Virus record (IMG/VR): IMGVR_UViG_3300045950_000318
Location: 1-20,556 of that record
Strand: one strand, 5' to 3'
Length of the DNA: 20,556 nt
Source: a virus
The notes beneath the pieces were generated by a model that was not told where the DNA came from, searched no databases, and saw only the letters and a list, made by a program, of their open reading frames with translations. Of this stretch, positions 13,344-20,556 are shown in pieces (the first letter of the stretch is position 1; every line of letters starts with the position of its first letter). A program made the translations under genes and the position numbers.

Positions 13344-14099
13344 TCAATCTTCCTCCAGCCCCTCGCGGATTCGCCGGAGCGCGCGCTGGAACCGCTTGCG
13401 TGCCGCCTCGTGCCCGATCCCGAGACGGCCGGCAGCCTCGTCCTGCCCCTCGCCCAGGACCACGACGGCGACGACGAGGTCGGCGTCGGCTCCGACCATG
13501 CGGGCAAGGAGTTCCCGGAGCATGGCCGTCTCGGCGTCCACCCCCGCGCCCGGAGGCAGGCCGAAACGCGAAGGGCCGTGCGACTCGCTGGCAAGCACGT
13601 CGCCCAGGGCATCGGGATCGGGCAGATCGGCCCGCAGGGACCGTTCTGCCCACACCCGCCGCAGATCCTGCCGGATATCCCGCTCGACGTTGCGCACCAG
13701 GGTGGCGGCAAGACGGCGGATCCCGGTGAGATCGGCCCGGAGCACGGCGAGCGTGAACCGTTCGGAGATCGCCGAGACCAGCTCGTCCGGGCGCTCGCGG
13801 AAATGGCGCAGCAGGCGGCGATAGATGCCGTCCAGCGCCGGCCAGAGGGCCAGCCACAGCATCGTCATCGCGATGCCGCGGCCGCCGGCCTGGACCTCCG
13901 CGACGAGAACGGCGAGCAGGCGATCCTTGTCGTCGAGGTCGCCGCTCCTCGCATGGAAATAGTCGAGGACTGCCGCCTGGTCGTGGAAGCGGCGCAATTC
14001 GGAATGGCTCCGTTGAAGGGTCTCGAACCGCCGCCGGGACTCGATGAGCTGGAGGGAACGCATGAAACCGTCGTGAAGGGACTGCCAGAGGGCTCGCAC
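13344..14099 (-). CDS. Sigma-70-like (ECF type) transcription factor (251 aa)
   Basis: Residues ~69-150 resemble sigma region 2: MLWLALWPALDGIYRRLL, then ISERFTLAVL and RLAATLVRNVERDIRQDLRR. Residues ~196-245 resemble region 4 with a helix-turn-helix: LLARMVGADADLVVAVVVLG, DEAAGRLGIGHEAARKRFQR, ALRRI. The protein could direct RNA polymerase to element promoters, possibly the dispersed 32-base element that lies just after its own stop. The start is GTG at 14099, with AAGGCAGG upstream; an in-frame ATG at 14063 is the alternative. The sigma role is inferred from these patterns; a DNA-binding protein without RNA polymerase contact is possible. Confidence 0.68.
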   Translation of the reverse strand: MRALWQSLHDGFMRSLQLIESRRRFETLQRSHSELRRFHDQAAVLDYFHARSGDLDDKDRLLAVLVAEVQAGGRGIAMTMLWLALWPALDGIYRRLLRHFRERPDELVSAISERFTLAVLRADLTGIRRLAATLVRNVERDIRQDLRRVWAERSLRADLPDPDALGDVLASESHGPSRFGLPPGAGVDAETAMLRELLARMVGADADLVVAVVVLGEGQDEAAGRLGIGHEAARKRFQRALRRIREGLEED

Positions 14100-14197: not shown

Positions 14198-14416
14198 CTA
14201 CGCGGCGTCGCGGCCGTTTCGCTCCGAGGTCGTCAGCCTGATCACGTTCAGGGTTCTGCAGCTGGGGCGGTAGCAGACGATCGACGCATGGAACGCGCCG
14301 TCGACCGTGGCCTGCAGATCGCCCCGCCGGATGGTCATGCCGCTGTCGTCGATCTTGGCGAGGAGAATGCTGCAGGACTTGCAGCGGACTTCCCTCGATC
14401 TGGGTGGTGTACCCAT
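14198..14416 (-). CDS. Com-like zinc-binding protein (72 aa)
   Basis: Four cysteines form a two-knuckle pattern: C12-x2-C15 in VRCKSCSILLAKID and C48-x4-C53 in IVCYRPSCRTLNVIR. The CxxC followed by LLAKI, and the closing C-x-TLN, resemble the Com zinc protein of phage Mu, which binds mRNA and opens a hairpin that hides the mom ribosome site. The segment between the knuckles (IRRGDLQATVDGAFHASI) is like that of short Com-type relatives. The Shine-Dalgarno AAGGAGG is 7 bases before the ATG. That site lies inside a strong hairpin (14419-14468), which suggests translational control of this gene itself. There is no recognisable mom gene in the window. Confidence 0.7.
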   Translation of the reverse strand: MGTPPRSREVRCKSCSILLAKIDDSGMTIRRGDLQATVDGAFHASIVCYRPSCRTLNVIRLTTSERNGRDAA

Positions 14417-14543: not shown

Positions 14544-15764
14544 CTATCCCCCGAGGTTCAACGGCACGGGCACGCCCAGCTCGCGCGCCTTCTTGAGCAG
14601 CGTTTCGGCGTTCTTCCGGGCCTTCTCGAGATTCCGTGCAAGCTGCTTCGTGCCGGGTGTCGAAACCTTGCGGCCGGACCTCGGCTTCGTCCGGTTCTCG
14701 CCGACGAACCGCAGGGACTGCAGGCTTTCATCGAAACGGACATGACGAGGATCGAGCGCGAGGCGGATGCGGCCGTCGCGATTCGGCGACGACTTGACCA
14801 GCGATTTCATCTCGGCGGCCGACAGCCCGTCGACCGGATGGCTTTCGAGCTCCCACCGCAGGGCTTCGATGTCGTGGTCCTTGTCGTCTCCGAGAAGCCG
14901 CCATTTCTCGATCCAGCCCCCGCCCTCCGTGTCGGCATCGGCGGCTCGCGCGGCGGCAAGCAGGAGAAGCCGCGCGAACTTGATGTCGCTGATCCGGAAG
15001 CCGCCGCAGTCATGTCCGTTGATGCGCACCACGTGCCGCTCGCCGGGGGCCGTTGCGAACTCCATCGTCACGTCGTCGAAGAGCGCGGCCGGGTCGTCGA
15101 TCCGGACGCGGCGATACTGCGGATCGATCGCGTCGAGGGCACGCCACAGCGCCAGATCGCCGTCCCGCGTTTCCGGTACCGGCAGGATCACGATGCCGCT
15201 CGGACGGCAGACGTCCGGCAGCTGGCCGCCAAGCCGGCTCAGCAGCACGATGAGGCCGTCGCCGCCGAGCCGATGCGCGAGACCGCTGCAGATCGCATCG
15301 AAGGGGGCGTCGGGCTGCAGCATCCAGACCACCGGGACGCGGCGCCCGCGGCGCGCCAGGATGCCGACCGGAACGATCGCGGGCTCAAGACCCGCTTCGA
15401 GCGGCTCAAGATCGTTCCGATCCCGCAGCGCGGCGAACACCCGTTCGGCCGGGCAGCGGTAATCCTCCAGCGCCTTTGCCGGCACCCATTGCCAGCCCGG
15501 CCAGCACGCCGGCTCGTTGGGGCAGGCGACGCCTACGAGATCTTCGTCGCGCCGCGACTCCAGGTCGAGATTCGGCGTGCAGACATGCTCGCAATCGGGC
15601 GGCCGCCACCGGGCGCCATCCATCCGCTCGATGATGCGCGAGCGCAACAGGTCTTCGGCGTCCAGGCCGGCGTCATCGAGGTCGCCCCGCGTGACGACTG
15701 CGTCACGCGCAAGCCGCAATCTTGACAGCAGGAGCGGCCATGGAGAAGGCGCTGCGGCTTTCAT
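14544..15764 (-). CDS. Unknown protein with N-terminal Cys cluster and possible winged helix (406 aa)
   Basis: I do not recognise the family. An N-terminal cluster of cysteines (C58, C62, C81, C87) in CEHVC and ACPNEPAC could bind zinc. The centre (~110-245) has alternating beta-like strands such as VPVVWMLQPDAPF and GLIVLLSRLGGQLPDV. Residues ~250-345 resemble a response-regulator-type winged helix: ISDIKFARLLLLAAA, WIEKWRLLG, DIEALRWELESHP, and RLALDPRHVRF. The C-terminus is basic and helical (NLEKARKNAETLLKKA). The start overlaps the preceding unknown gene by 62 bases, so the two are likely made together. The winged helix and zinc site are inference from residue pattern. Confidence 0.78.
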   Translation of the reverse strand: MKAAAPSPWPLLLSRLRLARDAVVTRGDLDDAGLDAEDLLRSRIIERMDGARWRPPDCEHVCTPNLDLESRRDEDLVGVACPNEPACWPGWQWVPAKALEDYRCPAERVFAALRDRNDLEPLEAGLEPAIVPVGILARRGRRVPVVWMLQPDAPFDAICSGLAHRLGGDGLIVLLSRLGGQLPDVCRPSGIVILPVPETRDGDLALWRALDAIDPQYRRVRIDDPAALFDDVTMEFATAPGERHVVRINGHDCGGFRISDIKFARLLLLAAARAADADTEGGGWIEKWRLLGDDKDHDIEALRWELESHPVDGLSAAEMKSLVKSSPNRDGRIRLALDPRHVRFDESLQSLRFVGENRTKPRSGRKVSTPGTKQLARNLEKARKNAETLLKKARELGVPVPLNLGG

Positions 15765-16908
15765 CGATCCCCCATTCCTTGAGATAGCGGCGGATGATCC
15801 GGTCCCGCTTGGTGTCCCTCAGGTTGGTGCTGTTGGGATTGTGCAGGCTGGCGGTCCGGTATCTGGCGCGCCCCTTGGCGTCCGCGAACTCGAACTGGAT
15901 GCGCACGCCGTCGGCCAGGCTGCCGTCGGCGGGGATGCGGTGATCGGCAAGCACCGTTCGCAGATCGTCGGGGCGGATGTTCGGGACCAGGTCGATGGTC
16001 AGCTTCCGGACGTCGGCGTGTCCGGTCCGCATGACGGCGCGCGTGACGCAGGGCCGGCCAAGGCCGTCCGCCGGATGGGTGGGAAAATCGAATCCGGGCT
16101 GGAACAGCGGCGCGAAGTTGTACTTCGGCGTCCTGCTCAGGTCCTCGAAGTAGTCCGCATCGCCGACGAAGATCTCGGCCCAGAGGTCGCGCAGCTTCTC
16201 GCGCTCGGGCTTGCGCGGCGCCTTCACCAGAAGGGTGCAGGTCTCGGGATAGAAGACGGCGGCGATGCGGCTCACGAGCCGCATCCACACCGGCTCGACG
16301 GTGTCGTCGCTGCGGAACTGATCGAGCGGCTTCACCTCGTCCTCGTGGAAGACGAACACGGCGAACTTGCCGTCCCCGTCGAAATCCTCGACCTGGCAGC
16401 GGGCACCGCCGGCGTGCCGGCGGAAATGCTCCGCCATCGCCTGGCGGATGCGGGCCTTTGCCTCGGGCGCGGCCTTCACCTCGACCGGGTACTTGCCTCG
16501 GTACTCCCGGAAATGGTCGAGCATGTCGACGGCGTAGCTCTGGTGCGCGCGGTGGAACTCCTGCGGCGCGTGCAGGAACAGCCGCATCGCGAGGTCGTTC
16601 GCGGACCAGTCCCGGCTCTCCTCGATCAGATGGGCATCGTCGGTGCCGGCCCAGACCAGCCGGGCGACGTGATCGAGATACGGCCGCGCATGGGTGCCGC
16701 ACATGTCGTTCACGGGCAGGAGCTCCGTTTCCATATGCAGGCGCTCGGCTTCCGGCAGCGCCTTCCACACTCGATAGGCCTGGTTGGGATCGGCCGCCTT
16801 GCCGCGATCGGCGATCAGGACGATGTCTCGGGCGGCCTCGTAGAGGGCGATGACGGACGGGGAGACCTTCCTGAAGAAGGCCTTCGGGTTCCACTCGCGG
16901 TGGCGCAT
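15703..16908 (-). CDS. Unknown protein, 401 aa, first gene after the XRE-type operator
   Basis: I do not recognise the family. The N-terminal half is mostly helical: AFFRKVSPSVIALYEAARDI, RVWKALPEAERLHMETELLP, then ANDLAMRLFLHAP. A middle part has ARCQVEDFDGDGKFAVFVFH and VFYPETCTLLVKAPRKPERE, with a repeated strand pattern. Later come TPKYNFAPLFQPGFDFPTHP and HNPNSTNLRDTKRDRIIRRY. No signal peptide or membrane segment is seen. The ATG at 16908 has AAAGGA 9 bases upstream. A GTTTA-box like the one before the XRE gene lies 26 bases upstream, so it is probably under the same repressor. Its 3' end overlaps the next gene by 62 bases. A DNA- or RNA-processing role is possible but unproven. Confidence 0.78.
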   Translation of the reverse strand: MRHREWNPKAFFRKVSPSVIALYEAARDIVLIADRGKAADPNQAYRVWKALPEAERLHMETELLPVNDMCGTHARPYLDHVARLVWAGTDDAHLIEESRDWSANDLAMRLFLHAPQEFHRAHQSYAVDMLDHFREYRGKYPVEVKAAPEAKARIRQAMAEHFRRHAGGARCQVEDFDGDGKFAVFVFHEDEVKPLDQFRSDDTVEPVWMRLVSRIAAVFYPETCTLLVKAPRKPEREKLRDLWAEIFVGDADYFEDLSRTPKYNFAPLFQPGFDFPTHPADGLGRPCVTRAVMRTGHADVRKLTIDLVPNIRPDDLRTVLADHRIPADGSLADGVRIQFEFADAKGRARYRTASLHNPNSTNLRDTKRDRIIRRYLKEWGIDESRSAFSMAAPAVKIAACA

Positions 16909-16934
16909 TCTGGATGTCCTTTCAATAACGTTGC

Positions 16935-16949
16935 CTAAACGGTAAACAC
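16935..16949 (-). promoter_or_regulatory. Operator-like GTTTA box upstream of the 401-aa gene
   Basis: On the minus strand GTGTTTACCGTTTAG carries two GTTTA units 8 bases apart. It matches the box upstream of the XRE gene (18056-18070) at 13 of 15 positions. It lies 26 bases before the ATG at 16908; the XRE copy is 25 bases before its ATG. A shared repressor site is the simplest reading. Confidence 0.6.
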
Positions 16950-16975
16950 TGCACTCAAAAAAAGGGGGCGGCGTG

Positions 16976-17674
16976 TCAGAACAGCTCCGCCGTCGCCTGG
17001 GATTTGTCCTTGACCAGCTTCAGGTCGAGCAGGCGGTAGCACATCGCCTCGTTGGAGACGTTCAGGAACCCGCCCTCGGCAATGACGTCGCCCGCGAAGG
17101 CACGAAGTCGCGCGTCCGGGACGCCCGTCTTCCGGCTGTCGGCGAGCCCGTCCCAGACCGGCGGCTTGGCGTTGCAGACGGCGAGCGCGGCCGCTCGCAC
17201 CGCCATCGCCGGCATCAATAGCCGGACGGCGAACTGGTCGGCCTGCCATTCGGCCGGCGTCCTGTGCTCCTTCGCGCGGCACACCACGGCCGGCGTCGGC
17301 TTCTCGTCGGGGCTCATGGAAAACAGCGGCAAGGTCACTTTGTCCATCTCGTAGAGAGGGCGGTGCAGCTGCCAGTGGCCGATCTCGTGGGCCACTGTGA
17401 ACGCGAAACGCCCCTCCTTGCCCTCCAGCGACCGGTCGATGCGGACGCACTCCTCGTCGAACCAGGTCGCGCCCAGGACATCGTCCATGCCGAGCCGCTC
17501 CTTGAGATCGGCTACCTCCAGCGTCAGCCGCAGATACCCCTCGGCGATCTCGTCCACGTCGATGGGCGGCTGCACGACGGCCTTCTTCCATGCTCCGTAT
17601 TGCCGCAGCAGCTCGGCGACGGCGTGGTCGAGATCGCTCGGCTTCAGGAAGGGCACCTTGATCTGCAACATCAC
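16976..17674 (-). CDS. ImmA/IrrE family metallo-endopeptidase (232 aa)
   Basis: A zinc protease of the COG2856 type. FAFTVAHEIGHWQLH holds the HExxH zinc site (HEIGH, 96-100), and AEWQADQFAVRLLMP (141-155) supplies the third ligand and the conserved helix. In known cases such as Bacillus ICEBs1 ImmA, the protease cleaves the partner XRE repressor to release the element's genes. Here it overlaps an XRE gene directly upstream. The first possible start is GTG at 17674, which overlaps the repressor stop as GTGA; ATG at 17671 is the next codon, and the two cannot be separated by sequence. A target other than the repressor is possible. Confidence 0.92.
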   Translation of the reverse strand: MMLQIKVPFLKPSDLDHAVAELLRQYGAWKKAVVQPPIDVDEIAEGYLRLTLEVADLKERLGMDDVLGATWFDEECVRIDRSLEGKEGRFAFTVAHEIGHWQLHRPLYEMDKVTLPLFSMSPDEKPTPAVVCRAKEHRTPAEWQADQFAVRLLMPAMAVRAAALAVCNAKPPVWDGLADSRKTGVPDARLRAFAGDVIAEGGFLNVSNEAMCYRLLDLKLVKDKSQATAELF

Positions 17675-18030
17675 GCCTTGCCTTTCTTCGCCTGCGCCTT
17701 GTCCAGAAGCGCCATGAGCTTGTCCGCTGAGACGTTCTGCTCCTTGGCCCGGCGCAGGAATTCCGGCATGCCCGGGTCGGCCTTCACATAGTCCGAGACC
17801 TCCCTTGGGATCCGGCCGGCCAGGATCATCAGCTCGTCGAAGTCCTCCTGGAGCATGTCGGCAAGCTTCCGGATCACCTTCTCGGCGGGGACAGCCTTCT
17901 CGGCCCCGGTTTCGATTCGCGACATGAAGGTGGCCGAGATGTCCGCCTTGCGGGCGGCCTCCCGAAGCCCGATGCCAAGTTCCGTGCGGCGCCGGCGGAT
18001 GCGTTCCCCAAAGGTCTCCGACTTCTTCAT
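17671..18030 (-). CDS. XRE-family transcriptional repressor (119 aa)
   Basis: The N-terminal part is a Cro/CI-type helix-turn-helix: FGERIRRRRTELGIGLREAA (7-26), RKADISATFMSRIETG (27-42), KVIRKLADML (51-60). A short C-terminal tail (DPGMPEFLRRAKEQNVSADK, 85-104) could take part in dimerisation or cleavage. The frame continues upstream to an ATG at 18144, but MKKSETFGER at 18030 gives the normal XRE start and leaves the operator box at 18056-18070 outside the gene. GGAGA precedes the ATG. It overlaps ImmA at its stop. It probably represses itself and the 401-aa gene, both of which carry the same box. Confidence 0.9.
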   Translation of the reverse strand: MKKSETFGERIRRRRTELGIGLREAARKADISATFMSRIETGAEKAVPAEKVIRKLADMLQEDFDELMILAGRIPREVSDYVKADPGMPEFLRRAKEQNVSADKLMALLDKAQAKKGKA

Positions 18031-18055
18031 TTCGGTCTCCGATTCTGCTTGTACC

Positions 18056-18070
18056 CTAAACCCTAAACAC
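18056..18070 (-). promoter_or_regulatory. Operator-like GTTTA box upstream of the XRE gene
   Basis: On the minus strand this is GTGTTTAGGGTTTAG, two GTTTA units 8 bases apart. It is 25 bases before the XRE start codon. A near copy lies upstream of the 401-aa gene at the same distance, which fits repressor autoregulation plus control of a second operon. Confidence 0.6.
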
Positions 18071-18108
18071 CATCGAGTCAATCGCCCCTCCGGCGGCCGA
18101 GCACCGCT

Positions 18109-18140
18109 CTTGTCCCAATCCGCCCGCGGCAGGCGCGTTT
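18109..18140 (+). promoter_or_regulatory. Dispersed 32-base element, copy 2
   Basis: On the plus strand this matches the minus-strand copy at 13337-13306: the first 21 bases agree at 20 positions and CGCGTTT is kept after four differing bases. It points toward DUF2924 and the recombinase. It could be a promoter for an element-encoded sigma factor or an operator. Confidence 0.55.
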
Positions 18141-18374
18141 CCATGGCGAACTTCCATCGCCGGGAACCGCTGCCTTGTCCAACCCCATCTCTTCCGATCG
18201 CATGACCGCAGCTGAGCGAATCGGCGAGATTTGCACGATTCTGGCCCGGGGGCTGGTTCGGCTGAAGGCGCGCCAGTCAAGGCCTGTATCCGACGACCGC
18301 GGAGAAAGTTGCCTCGACTTCCCGGACGACCAACGCGGTCATGCCAACCGCACGCGAAGTCGTGAGGCAAGAGC

Positions 18375-18821
18375 ATGACCGAGACCATCATCGCCCGAAT
18401 CGCGGCTCTGAAGACGACGCCGACCCCGGATCTCAAGAAGCAGTGGCGCGATCTCTTCGAGACTGAGCCGCCGCCCTACAACCGGCGCTTCCTCGAAAGC
18501 CGGCTCGCCTACCGCATCCAGGAACTCGCCTACGGCGGGCTCAAGCCCGAGACGATCGAGCGCCTCGAGGCGCTGGGCGAGCAGCTCGACGGCGGCAACA
18601 TCGTCATGCGCCGGACCCGCGCCCACGACAAGCCGATCACCGGCACGCGGCTGATCCGCGAATGGCAGGGCGTCGAGCACACCGTCACCGTCCTGCAGGA
18701 CGGCTACGAGTGGCAGGGGCGGCCCTACCGGTCGCTTTCCGCCATCGCGCGGGCCATCACCGGCACGCGATGGAACGGCTGGGTGTTCTTCGGCCTCAAG
18801 AACCAGCGGGGCCACGCATGA
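18375..18821 (+). CDS. DUF2924 domain protein (148 aa)
   Basis: Matches the DUF2924 family by LKKQWRDLFETEPPPYNRRF (20-39), ESRLAYRIQELAYGGL (41-56), and the C-terminal half with RLIREWQGVEHTVTVLQDGY, GRPYRSLSAIARAITGTRWN and GWVFFGLK. This C-terminal pattern is like a small DNA-binding fold seen in phage-type proteins. The family is usually encoded just before a large serine recombinase in alphaproteobacteria, as here. It is probably an accessory factor for the recombinase, but its role has not been shown to my knowledge. Its stop overlaps the recombinase start as ATGA. Confidence 0.9.
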   Translation: MTETIIARIAALKTTPTPDLKKQWRDLFETEPPPYNRRFLESRLAYRIQELAYGGLKPETIERLEALGEQLDGGNIVMRRTRAHDKPITGTRLIREWQGVEHTVTVLQDGYEWQGRPYRSLSAIARAITGTRWNGWVFFGLKNQRGHA

Positions 18822-20149
18822 AGAAGCCGCCCCATCCGCCGAAAGCCGCCCGGAAGCTCCGCTGCGCGATCTACACGCGCAAGTCGAGCGAGGAAGGGCT
18901 GGAGATGGAGTTCAACAGCCTCGACGCCCAGCGTGAGGCCTGCGAGGCCTACATCGCCAGCCAGAAGCCCGAAGGATGGGTGCGCCTGGCCGACCGCTAC
19001 GACGACGGCGGTTTCTCCGGCGGCACGCTGGAGCGCCCCGCGCTGAAGCGTCTCCTCGCGGACATCGAGGCGGGCGGGGTCGACGTTGTAGTCGTTTACA
19101 AGATCGACCGCCTCAGCCGCTCGCTCATGGACTTCGCCAAGCTGGTTGAGGTGTTCGACCGGCGGGGCGTGACCTTCGTCAGCGTCACGCAGTCGTTCAA
19201 CACGACGACCTCGATGGGCCGGTTGACGCTCAACATCCTGCTGTCCTTCGCCCAGTTCGAGCGCGAGGTGATCGGCGAGCGCATTCGGGACAAGTTCGCC
19301 GCCAGCCGCAAGAAGGGCATGTGGATGGGCGGCTTCGTGCCGCTCGGATACGAAGTCAAGGACCGCAAGCTCGTCATCAACGAGCGCGAGGCCGCGACCG
19401 TCCGGATGATCTTTGAGCGGTTCGTCAAGGTGGGTTCGGCGACTGCCCTGGCCCGTGTCCTTGCCGCCGAGGGGGTGACGACGCGGCGCGGGCGGCTGGT
19501 CGACAAGGGGTTCCTCTACAAGCTGCTGAACAATCGGGTCTACATCGGCGAGGCGGTCCACAAGGGCACGGCCTATCCCGGCGAGCATGAGGCCATCATC
19601 GGCCGCTCCCTGTGGGACAAGGTCCACGGGATACTCCGCGAGAGCCCGAGGGCCCGCGCCGCGCGCACGCGGGCCTCGACGCCCGCGCTGCTCAAGGGGC
19701 TGATCTTCGGTCCCACCGGCTGCGCCATGACGCCGACCCACACGCGGCGCGGCGAAAAGCTCTATCGCTATTACGTCAGCCAGTCGGTGCTCAAGCGCGG
19801 GCCCGAGGCCTGCCCGGTCGGGCGCGTATCCGCGGCCGAGATAGAGGCGGCCGTCGTCAGCCAATTGCGTGGCCTCCTGCGGGCACCGGAGTTCGTCGTC
19901 GGCACATGGCGCGCCGCCCGGGCAGAGATCGATGGGCTCACAGAATCCGAGGTGCGCGAGGCACTGGAGCGGCTCGACCCGCTTTGGGACGAACTCTTCC
20001 CGGCCGAGCAGGCGCGCATCGTCCAACTGCTCGTCGAGCGGATCGACGTGGCGCCGGGCGGCATCGATATCCGGCTCCGTGTCGACGGACTGGCAAATTT
20101 GGTCCGTGACCTTGCCGGCGCCGGCCCCGAGTCGCGGAGGGCGGCATGA
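18818..20149 (+). CDS. Large serine recombinase (443 aa)
   Basis: The N-terminal resolvase domain has the catalytic serine in CAIYTRKSSEEG (S23), then FNSLDAQREACEAYI, GGFSGGTLERPALKRLLADI, VVVYKIDRLSRSLMDFA and FAQFEREVIGERIRDKFAA. A recombinase domain follows, with GYEVKDRKLVINEREAATVR and RVYIGEAVHKGTAYPGEHEA. The C-terminal part has GLIFGPTGCAMTPTHTRRG and CPVGRVSAAEIE. The zinc ribbon usually seen there appears reduced to scattered cysteines. It is the likely integrase/excisionase for the element, acting on attP/attB sites that cannot be placed here. The open frame begins further upstream, but ATG 18818 overlaps the DUF2924 stop and gives the normal start MKKPPHPPKA. Confidence 0.94.
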   Translation: MKKPPHPPKAARKLRCAIYTRKSSEEGLEMEFNSLDAQREACEAYIASQKPEGWVRLADRYDDGGFSGGTLERPALKRLLADIEAGGVDVVVVYKIDRLSRSLMDFAKLVEVFDRRGVTFVSVTQSFNTTTSMGRLTLNILLSFAQFEREVIGERIRDKFAASRKKGMWMGGFVPLGYEVKDRKLVINEREAATVRMIFERFVKVGSATALARVLAAEGVTTRRGRLVDKGFLYKLLNNRVYIGEAVHKGTAYPGEHEAIIGRSLWDKVHGILRESPRARAARTRASTPALLKGLIFGPTGCAMTPTHTRRGEKLYRYYVSQSVLKRGPEACPVGRVSAAEIEAAVVSQLRGLLRAPEFVVGTWRAARAEIDGLTESEVREALERLDPLWDELFPAEQARIVQLLVERIDVAPGGIDIRLRVDGLANLVRDLAGAGPESRRAA

Positions 20150-20556
20150 CCGGCGCGGCGTCCCTCGCCAAGGACGGGCGCACGCTCACGATTCGCGTGC
20201 CCTTCGCATTGCGAAAGCGCGGGGGTCGGAAAATGGTCGTGGCGCCAGAAGGCGCGACCTGGGGCGCGCCGCACCCACGCGTGGACAGCACCATGATCAA
20301 GGCGATCGCCCGCGCCCATCGGTGGAAGCGCCTTCTCGAAAGCGGCCGGCTCACCTCTGTCGCCGAACTGGCCGCAGCCGAGAAGATCAACCAGTCCTAT
20401 CTGTGTCGCGTCCTGCGGCTAACACTGCTCGCGCCAGACATCGTCGAGGCGATTCTCGACGGTCGACAGCCGGCGGAGATGACGCTGGCGATGCTAATGA
20501 AGCCGTTTCCGGTGGGTTGGCGAGAGCAAGCTCAGATGCTTTCTCATTGCCATTAG
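20146..20556 (+). CDS. Small helix-turn-helix protein of the recombinase cassette (136 aa)
   Basis: The N-terminal part, LTIRVPFALRKRGGRKMVVA, is followed by HPRVDSTMIKAIARAHRWKR and a ParB/KorB-type helix-turn-helix, LTSVAELAAAEKINQSYLCR, VLRLTLLAPDIVEAIL. It ends shortly after EMTLAMLMKPFPVGWREQ. Proteins of this type accompany serine recombinases after DUF2924 in alphaproteobacterial elements. It probably binds DNA and may control recombination direction or transcription of the cassette; this is inference. The ATG overlaps the recombinase stop as ATGA. Its stop codon coincides with the last bases of the window. Confidence 0.85.
   Translation: MTGAASLAKDGRTLTIRVPFALRKRGGRKMVVAPEGATWGAPHPRVDSTMIKAIARAHRWKRLLESGRLTSVAELAAAEKINQSYLCRVLRLTLLAPDIVEAILDGRQPAEMTLAMLMKPFPVGWREQAQMLSHCH

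Follow-up and report, generated by a model that had tools for sequence, protein, structure and literature searches.

A conserved gene pair under predicted XRE-ImmA control as a candidate early regulator of phage-like elements from myxobacteria and metagenomes

Introduction

In the SXT/R391 elements, SetR is a repressor cleaved in the SOS response, and SetCD is FlhDC-like, FlhC having a Cys4 zinc site. The elements governed by ImmR-ImmA keep their excision genes under direct repressor control, and the CapH-CapP pair switches on CBASS (cyclic oligonucleotide-based antiphage signaling system) upon DNA damage. Here, we analyze the IMG/VR virus record IMGVR_UViG_3300045950_000318, a stretch of 20,556 bases hereafter called the window (W when it is counted as a locus), in which the genes of an XRE repressor and an ImmA-type metalloprotease are followed by two long genes, p401 and p406. 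By analogy with SetCD or with GafYZ of Caulobacter, the best reading is that this pair would be a DNA-damage-released early regulator of temperate phages.

As described in the cited passages, SetC and SetD of SXT/R391 are encoded by two conserved genes and form an activator complex that is essential for transfer and required for the expression of int and xis (PMC4344509). The cited parts of two reports on the Caulobacter gene transfer agent (GTA) state that RogA, a LexA-like protein, represses gafYZ, and that GafY and GafZ co-precipitate, form a complex and activate the prophage-like GTA cluster (PMC9632790, PMC11150451). In the source excerpt on TnSmu1, an XRE repressor and an M78 protease govern induction. 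For pneumococcal prophages, C1-like and ImmAR systems are presented, in the section cited, as mutually exclusive alternatives, and the PprI metallopeptidase as an ImmA orthologue (PMC12637031); according to an extract of a further study, PprI is activated by single-stranded DNA and cleaves DdrO (PMC10904395). Phages of myxobacteria seem to be sparsely described in the literature that was searched.

Architecture of the locus and conservation of the p401-p406 pair

The minus strand of the window bears XRE, ImmA, p401 and p406 one after another, with the following features:

17671..18030, minus strand: XRE repressor (HTH_31 36.4 bits, cut-off 27; HTH_3 29 bits, cut-off 23), with homologues in L003, L005 and L006
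16976..17674, minus strand: ImmA/IrrE-type metalloprotease (Peptidase_M78 29.5 bits, cut-off 22; capP model 9.7e-18)
15703..16908, minus strand: p401 ('A'), matching phrog_37634 (function unknown) at 3.1e-9 over 8-384
14544..15764, minus strand: p406 ('B'), no family match; winged-helix-like N-terminus, Cys4 site, PD-(D/E)XK-like middle and OmpR-like winged helix, as predicted
18056..18068, minus strand: putative operator box GTTTAGGGTTTAG upstream of XRE
16935..16947, minus strand: putative operator box GTTTACCGTTTAG upstream of p401

XRE and ImmA, which are adjacent and both above the Pfam gathering cut-off, overlap by 4 bases, in line with the overlap noted in the original prediction, and the 62-base overlap that it gave for the two long genes is exact and recurs in L003, L005, L024 and L006 (9366-9427). 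The XRE open reading frame (ORF) is open from 17671 to 18144, its probable start being the ATG at 18030, to which the homologues point, and an HEIGH motif (HExxH) is read in the ImmA translation. The pair had been placed outside the replication run; instead, it heads that run on the same strand, preceded by the repressor and followed by the replication genes. The order XRE-ImmA-p401-p406-com-sigma was present in all four loci first found, namely the window, L003 and L006 (IMG/VR) and L005 (a contig of a Myxococcales metagenome-assembled genome). In L006 (8206-9427), p401 is broken by a stop codon and a frameshift, and p406 is open there.

In a set of 377 genomes from the phylum of genome G001, a 4-row p401 profile matched 11 genomes and a 15-row profile 28. 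The loci counted were 35, with fetched 20-kb regions, L032 (a duplicate of L033) and L034 (no passing p401 ORF) having been dropped; L002, L004 and L006 all stand for one contig. Of the 33 loci having at least 600 bases downstream, 30 carry a p406-type gene after p401, a count that is partly circular, since the p406 profile was built from 22 of the pair loci. Such a gene is missing in L076, L080 and L085; nonetheless, a Cys-bearing ORF follows p401 in the first two. Because the profile came from pairs, p406 was searched separately genome-wide, matching 10 of the 377 genomes: the best eight matches (E <= 2.1e-8) all adjoin p401, and two marginal ones (2.5e-4 and 8.9e-4) are not beside it. Over 22 loci, the distances among p401 and among p406 proteins were correlated (r 0.83, reached in 0 of 5000 permutations), part of this being owed to common descent of whole elements. 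Altogether, p401 and p406 are two families without known function that almost always form a fixed pair, and the conserved pairing suspected in the original prediction is borne out.

No relatives were found in annotated phages and plasmids. The PDB sequence search gave no match for p406 and two chance-level matches for p401, and viral scans with the p406 of L079 and L081 gave none. The literature searched for the pair or similar systems held no description of p401-p406, whose absence is not thereby proved.

Operator boxes shared by XRE and p401

The operator-like box that had been noticed before both XRE and the first gene of the pair withstood closer comparison. The 16-base boxes GTGTTTAGGGTTTAGG (before XRE) and GTGTTTACCGTTTAGG (before p401) are identical at 14 of 16 positions, a value reached in none of 100 shuffles, and GTTTAGnGTTTAG-like repeats precede both genes when the upstream sequences are compared. 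The 13-base pattern [GA]T[TC][TAC]A[GC]N[GA]TTTAG, itself derived from the XRE and p401 upstream sites, matches 10 times in 566,426 bases, where 20 first-order Markov resamplings average 0.2 matches. Every match precedes XRE or p401 at a locus with XRE-ImmA: both sites are matched in W, L006, L074 and L079, and the p401 site only in L003 and L077. In L005, a different, palindrome-like sequence, GTTAACCGATTGGTTGAC, stands at both places in inverted orientation, with 16 of 16 bases shared. In the plain pairwise comparison of 16-base promoter segments, W, L005 and L074 were better than all 100 shuffles.

Control of the pair by XRE-ImmA, as originally proposed, is thus supported at the sequence level by the operator in common and by the presence of XRE-ImmA directly upstream of p401 in 8 of the 35 loci (W, L003, L005, L006, L057, L074, L077 and L079). 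From the predicted binding of XRE before p401, little of the pair should be made while the element is quiet, as would be expected of an early gene rather than of one protecting a lysogen.

A terminator between ImmA and p401 was also considered, given a suggestive T-run, but a scan of that stretch found none; five folds of the gap gave none that was clear (z 0.95, 1.08, 1.43, -1.98 and -1.55), and the candidate was dropped.

Predicted features of the p401 and p406 proteins

No Pfam or NCBIfam family matched p401 above cut-off, and p406 had no family match at all. The Cys cluster suspected in the latter consists of C58, C62, C81 and C87; at least four Cys occur in the first 150 residues of all 22 p406-type proteins, grouped in one short stretch in most, and two are invariant in a 15-member alignment. 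This Cys4 site may form a zinc ribbon, that is, zinc binding is predicted.

The structure comparisons of p406 were made with a weak model, and the structure tool itself warns that Z below 8 may carry little meaning. Positions of about 232-340 resemble OmpR-type winged helices (BaeR, Z 8.7, root-mean-square deviation (rmsd) 2.6, 88 aligned), the C-terminus resembles VanR (Z 7.7, rmsd 2.0, 79 aligned), and a winged helix at 7-57 resembles the AbiEi antitoxin (Z 5.4). The middle part, at about 103-226, is closest to Bax1 (Z 6.8, rmsd 4.2, 109 aligned), EndoMS (Z 6.5, rmsd 3.5, 95 aligned), Can2 (Z 6.3, rmsd 3.2, 107 aligned) and VC1899 (Z 5.9), which we take to share the PD-(D/E)XK fold. The model suggests that p406 carries winged helices, so that the one originally supposed can be called probable. 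The Cys cluster together with the probable winged helices, the conserved pair and the XRE-ImmA control makes a regulator likely, this being the part of the earlier "sensor or regulator" proposal that is favored.

Enzymatic roles were considered and set aside. For p406 as a nuclease, no catalytic D...(D/E)xK motif was visible by eye in the aligned strands, and for p401 as an enzyme, a 15-member alignment has L226 alone invariant, with A107, R210 and L376 nearly so. Fold matches of p401 to CENP-L/N, CapZ, RdgC and RnlA were left unused as too weak (best Z 8.2, most about 5-7).

Genomic settings of the relatives

A LexA with an S24 peptidase domain lies 8 and 11 bases upstream of p401 in 2 of the 35 loci (L024 and L081), and this pair-linked LexA is an extra copy, because the genomes holding these loci, G162 and G214, each have a second LexA. 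A second LexA-type gene was also seen at G360:C187:26851-27039, about 11 kb from the XRE-ImmA-p401 locus L074. A serine recombinase is divergent within 152 bases in eight loci (L031, L036, L067, L068, L070, L071, L073 and L075), and a recombinase with DUF2924 lies beyond XRE-ImmA in five (W, L005, L074, L077 and L079). DUF2924, recombinase and ParB-like genes occur in other layouts in L078 and L080, an XRE gene is 1.3 kb off in L072, and the remaining loci have none of these partners in the 6 kb upstream, some owing to contig ends. Primases of two related profiles are present in 11 loci, and a sigma-54 type activator follows p406 in L026, L028, L029 and L030 (domain confirmed for L026).

The p401 relative in G001 lies in a tailed prophage, with terminase, portal, capsid, tail sheath, tail tube and tape measure genes downstream of the block. 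Phage_portal was found in 6 of the 28 p401 genomes, on the p401 contig itself in three (G001, G171 and G214, about 11-25 kb off), and a terminase lies about 7 kb upstream in L081 and is also present in L088. Other p401 loci may be satellites or plasmids. The pair belongs to phage-like elements from myxobacteria and metagenomes; the concern that its homologues might be ordinary phage replication or structural proteins is borne out by half, as they do come from phages or elements, yet are no known replication or structural proteins.

Several recurring neighbors deserve mention. A three-gene cassette (about 385, 205 and 162 residues) is found near p401 in L026, L029, L030, L035 and L072, the proteins tested having no Pfam or PHROG match. 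An FtsZ/tubulin-like GTPase gene lies near the pair in four recombinase-type loci (L067 11923-12504; L068 6480-7139, PF00091 1.7e-28; L069 5559-6239; L071 14318-14893). A trio of DUF2924, serine recombinase and ParB-like genes recurs (window 18375-20556, L005, L074, L077, L078, L079 and L080), and DUF2924 beside a recombinase is also noted in the cited part of a Wolbachia study (PMC10299305). ImmA profile matches opposite DUF2924 (L074, L079 and L080) were judged antisense ORFs and not counted.

Neighboring genes and the com-sigma leader

Downstream of p406, the minus strand of the window carries genes for a Com-like zinc ribbon, a sigma-like protein, an AAA ATPase, a helicase, a VapE/Toprim primase and two methyltransferases; on the plus strand, divergent from XRE, are DUF2924, a large serine recombinase and a ParB-like gene:

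14198..14416, minus strand: Com-like zinc ribbon gene (PF10122 21.4 bits, just under the cut-off of 22.9), kept in L003, L005 and L006
14100..14164, minus strand: conserved leader with hairpin directly 5' of the sigma-like gene, kept in 6 loci
13344..14099, minus strand: sigma-like protein with a region-4-type C-terminus (Sigma70_r4_2 E 0.0076, below cut-off)
18375..18821, plus strand: DUF2924 gene, divergent from XRE (180.9 bits)
18662..20149, plus strand: large serine recombinase (Resolvase 5.3e-40, Recombinase 9.1e-15, zinc beta ribbon 2.9e-7)

Homologues of the sigma-like protein were found in L003, L005, L006, L027, L074 and L081. The scan of 19 window proteins turned up no virion genes; the window may be only part of an element. 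Two adjoining genes at 340-2984 on its minus strand each combine an N6/N4 methyltransferase domain with a ParB_N-like part, which in the first of them scores under the cut-off.

In W, L003, L005, L006, L074 and L088, a conserved leader of roughly 65 bases stands between com and the sigma-like gene, with a terminal hairpin at the start codon of the latter, the best single fold of L005 being different. The hairpin loops are of GNRA type: GCAA in W and L003, GUGA in L006 and GAAA in L074. The leader had no match in Rfam, and in its consensus fold just 2 of 21 base pairs showed changes in both partners, with an unfavorable covariation term. Given this scant covariation, the RNA structure is taken as a lead and not claimed as proven, and the leader may be a Com-controlled RNA switch. 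In the Mu system, as given in the passage cited, Com activates translation of the mom mRNA and is thought to open a hairpin on it (PMC6483171).

Proposed role of the pair and alternative explanations

We give about even, or slightly better, chances to the proposal that the block is the lysis-lysogeny (maintenance-induction) switch of a temperate phage or an integrative element, in which p401-p406 would be the first early operon and encode a two-protein DNA-binding regulator. In the quiet element, XRE would sit on the GTTTAGnGTTTAG boxes before its own gene and p401, keeping both low; upon DNA damage, ImmA, to judge from its family, would remove XRE, whose place appears to be taken in some relatives by a LexA-type repressor. 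p401 and p406 would then be made together, translationally coupled through their overlapping frames, and could act as a complex, a step suggested by their co-occurrence and correlated divergence. p406 would grip DNA by its winged helices and Cys4 zinc ribbon and switch on functions further along, for instance the recombinase, Com-sigma and replication genes. That all this amounts to a new class of two-protein master regulators of temperate phages, with a Cys4 ribbon, a dead nuclease-like domain, two winged helices, interchangeable DNA-damage repressors (XRE-ImmA or LexA) and a relay from p401-p406 to the Com-like protein, which would open the RNA hairpin, and on to the sigma-like protein, which would serve later genes, is conceivable but rather doubtful.

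Several results weigh against the switch proposal. No target promoter of p401-p406 was found. Of the 35 loci, 25 are without XRE-ImmA or LexA directly upstream, and L025 lacks every type of recombinase, repressor and primase that was looked for. The pairwise promoter comparison was not clearly above shuffles in L003, L006 and L079 (19, 6 and 62 of 100), and, with no terminator supported between ImmA and p401, read-through from the XRE promoter is possible. Both structure models come from shallow alignments, that of p406 being weak (predicted local distance difference test, pLDDT, 65.5) and that of p401 poor (pLDDT 62.0, predicted template modeling score 0.37); Foldseek searches with them gave no match at E <= 0.001, and Trans_reg_C matched 1 of 15 p406 members only (E 0.26). 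Furthermore, the primase run is convergent and separate in L077 and L079, so that the pair does not always lead the replication operon.

This last observation tells equally against an unlikely alternative, namely that the pair, as first early operon, is a replication or excision factor (an origin-binding or recombination directionality protein) and not a transcription regulator. Such a role would suit the place of the pair in the window, with the repressor on one side and the replication genes on the other, the recombinase as divergent neighbor in 8 of 35 loci, the primases in 11 loci and the several winged helices, which would equally suit an initiator. The C-terminal domain of p406, however, is most like OmpR-type activators, and a LexA/XRE-controlled pair with a Cys4 site matches known activator pairs. 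An anti-repressor or Cro-like arm acting on XRE, and not on downstream promoters, would explain why the pair comes directly after the repressor genes with an operator in common, but elsewhere p401-p406 accompanies LexA or has no repressor next to it, which makes a dedicated XRE partner unlikely, and about 800 residues is large for such a role; we regard this as very improbable.

The original prediction had raised a cargo function such as defense, and the pair could indeed be conceived as a defense or superinfection-exclusion module induced by DNA damage via XRE-ImmA, as CapH-CapP does for CBASS. The likeness in PADLOC of ImmA to CapP (9.7e-18) and of XRE to CapH (2.4e-7) and the resemblance of the p406 middle part to PD-(D/E)XK folds speak in its favor, and DNA-damage-controlled immune operons exist, according to the excerpt cited (PMC13373217). 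We nevertheless consider it distinctly improbable: PADLOC gave no families for p401 and p406, no nuclease motif is visible, the few invariant residues in 15 members include none that looks catalytic, the operator suggests that the quiet element keeps the pair silent, and p401-p406 often adjoins a recombinase or repressor gene (18 of 35 loci), as it does in prophages and integrative elements.

If the proposed switch is true, a conserved two-protein early regulator with an exchanged repressor would mean that switch and output are separable. Such elements could be traced by p401-p406 as marker genes (28 of 377 genomes), and two large families annotated without function are named that can be tested by simple reporter and deletion work.

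Comparison with known systems

The XRE-ImmA pair of the window is like CapH-CapP of CBASS, but, unlike in CBASS, no CD-NTase or effector was found among the 19 window proteins scanned. As in phage Mu Com-mom, a Com-like zinc ribbon gene lies directly before a gene with a start hairpin; unlike in Mu, that gene is sigma-like and not mom, and the Com match is below cut-off. With ImmR-ImmA of TnSmu1, pneumococcal prophages and ICEBs1, the locus shares an adjacent XRE and M78 protease and an operator common to repressor and operon, whereas here the repressor box precedes the uncharacterized p401-p406 pair.

The likeness to SetR-SetCD lies in the arrangement of a two-gene operon under a repressor, activation by p401-p406 being proposed by analogy. 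SetC and SetD are about half the length of p401 and p406, the repressor here is XRE-ImmA or LexA, the element is phage-like, and, at E <= 0.5, none of the members compared, 15 each of p401 and p406, matched the FlhC/FlhD Pfam families. The names GafA, GafY and GafZ were absent from the NCBIfam matches of the window proteins, RogA is described in the cited passage as being without catalytic residues (PMC9632790), and no sign of antitermination emerged for the p401-p406 locus. In arrangement, the level at which the two were compared, the p401-p406 locus resembles RogA-GafY-GafZ as a repressor-controlled two-gene operon in a prophage-like setting.

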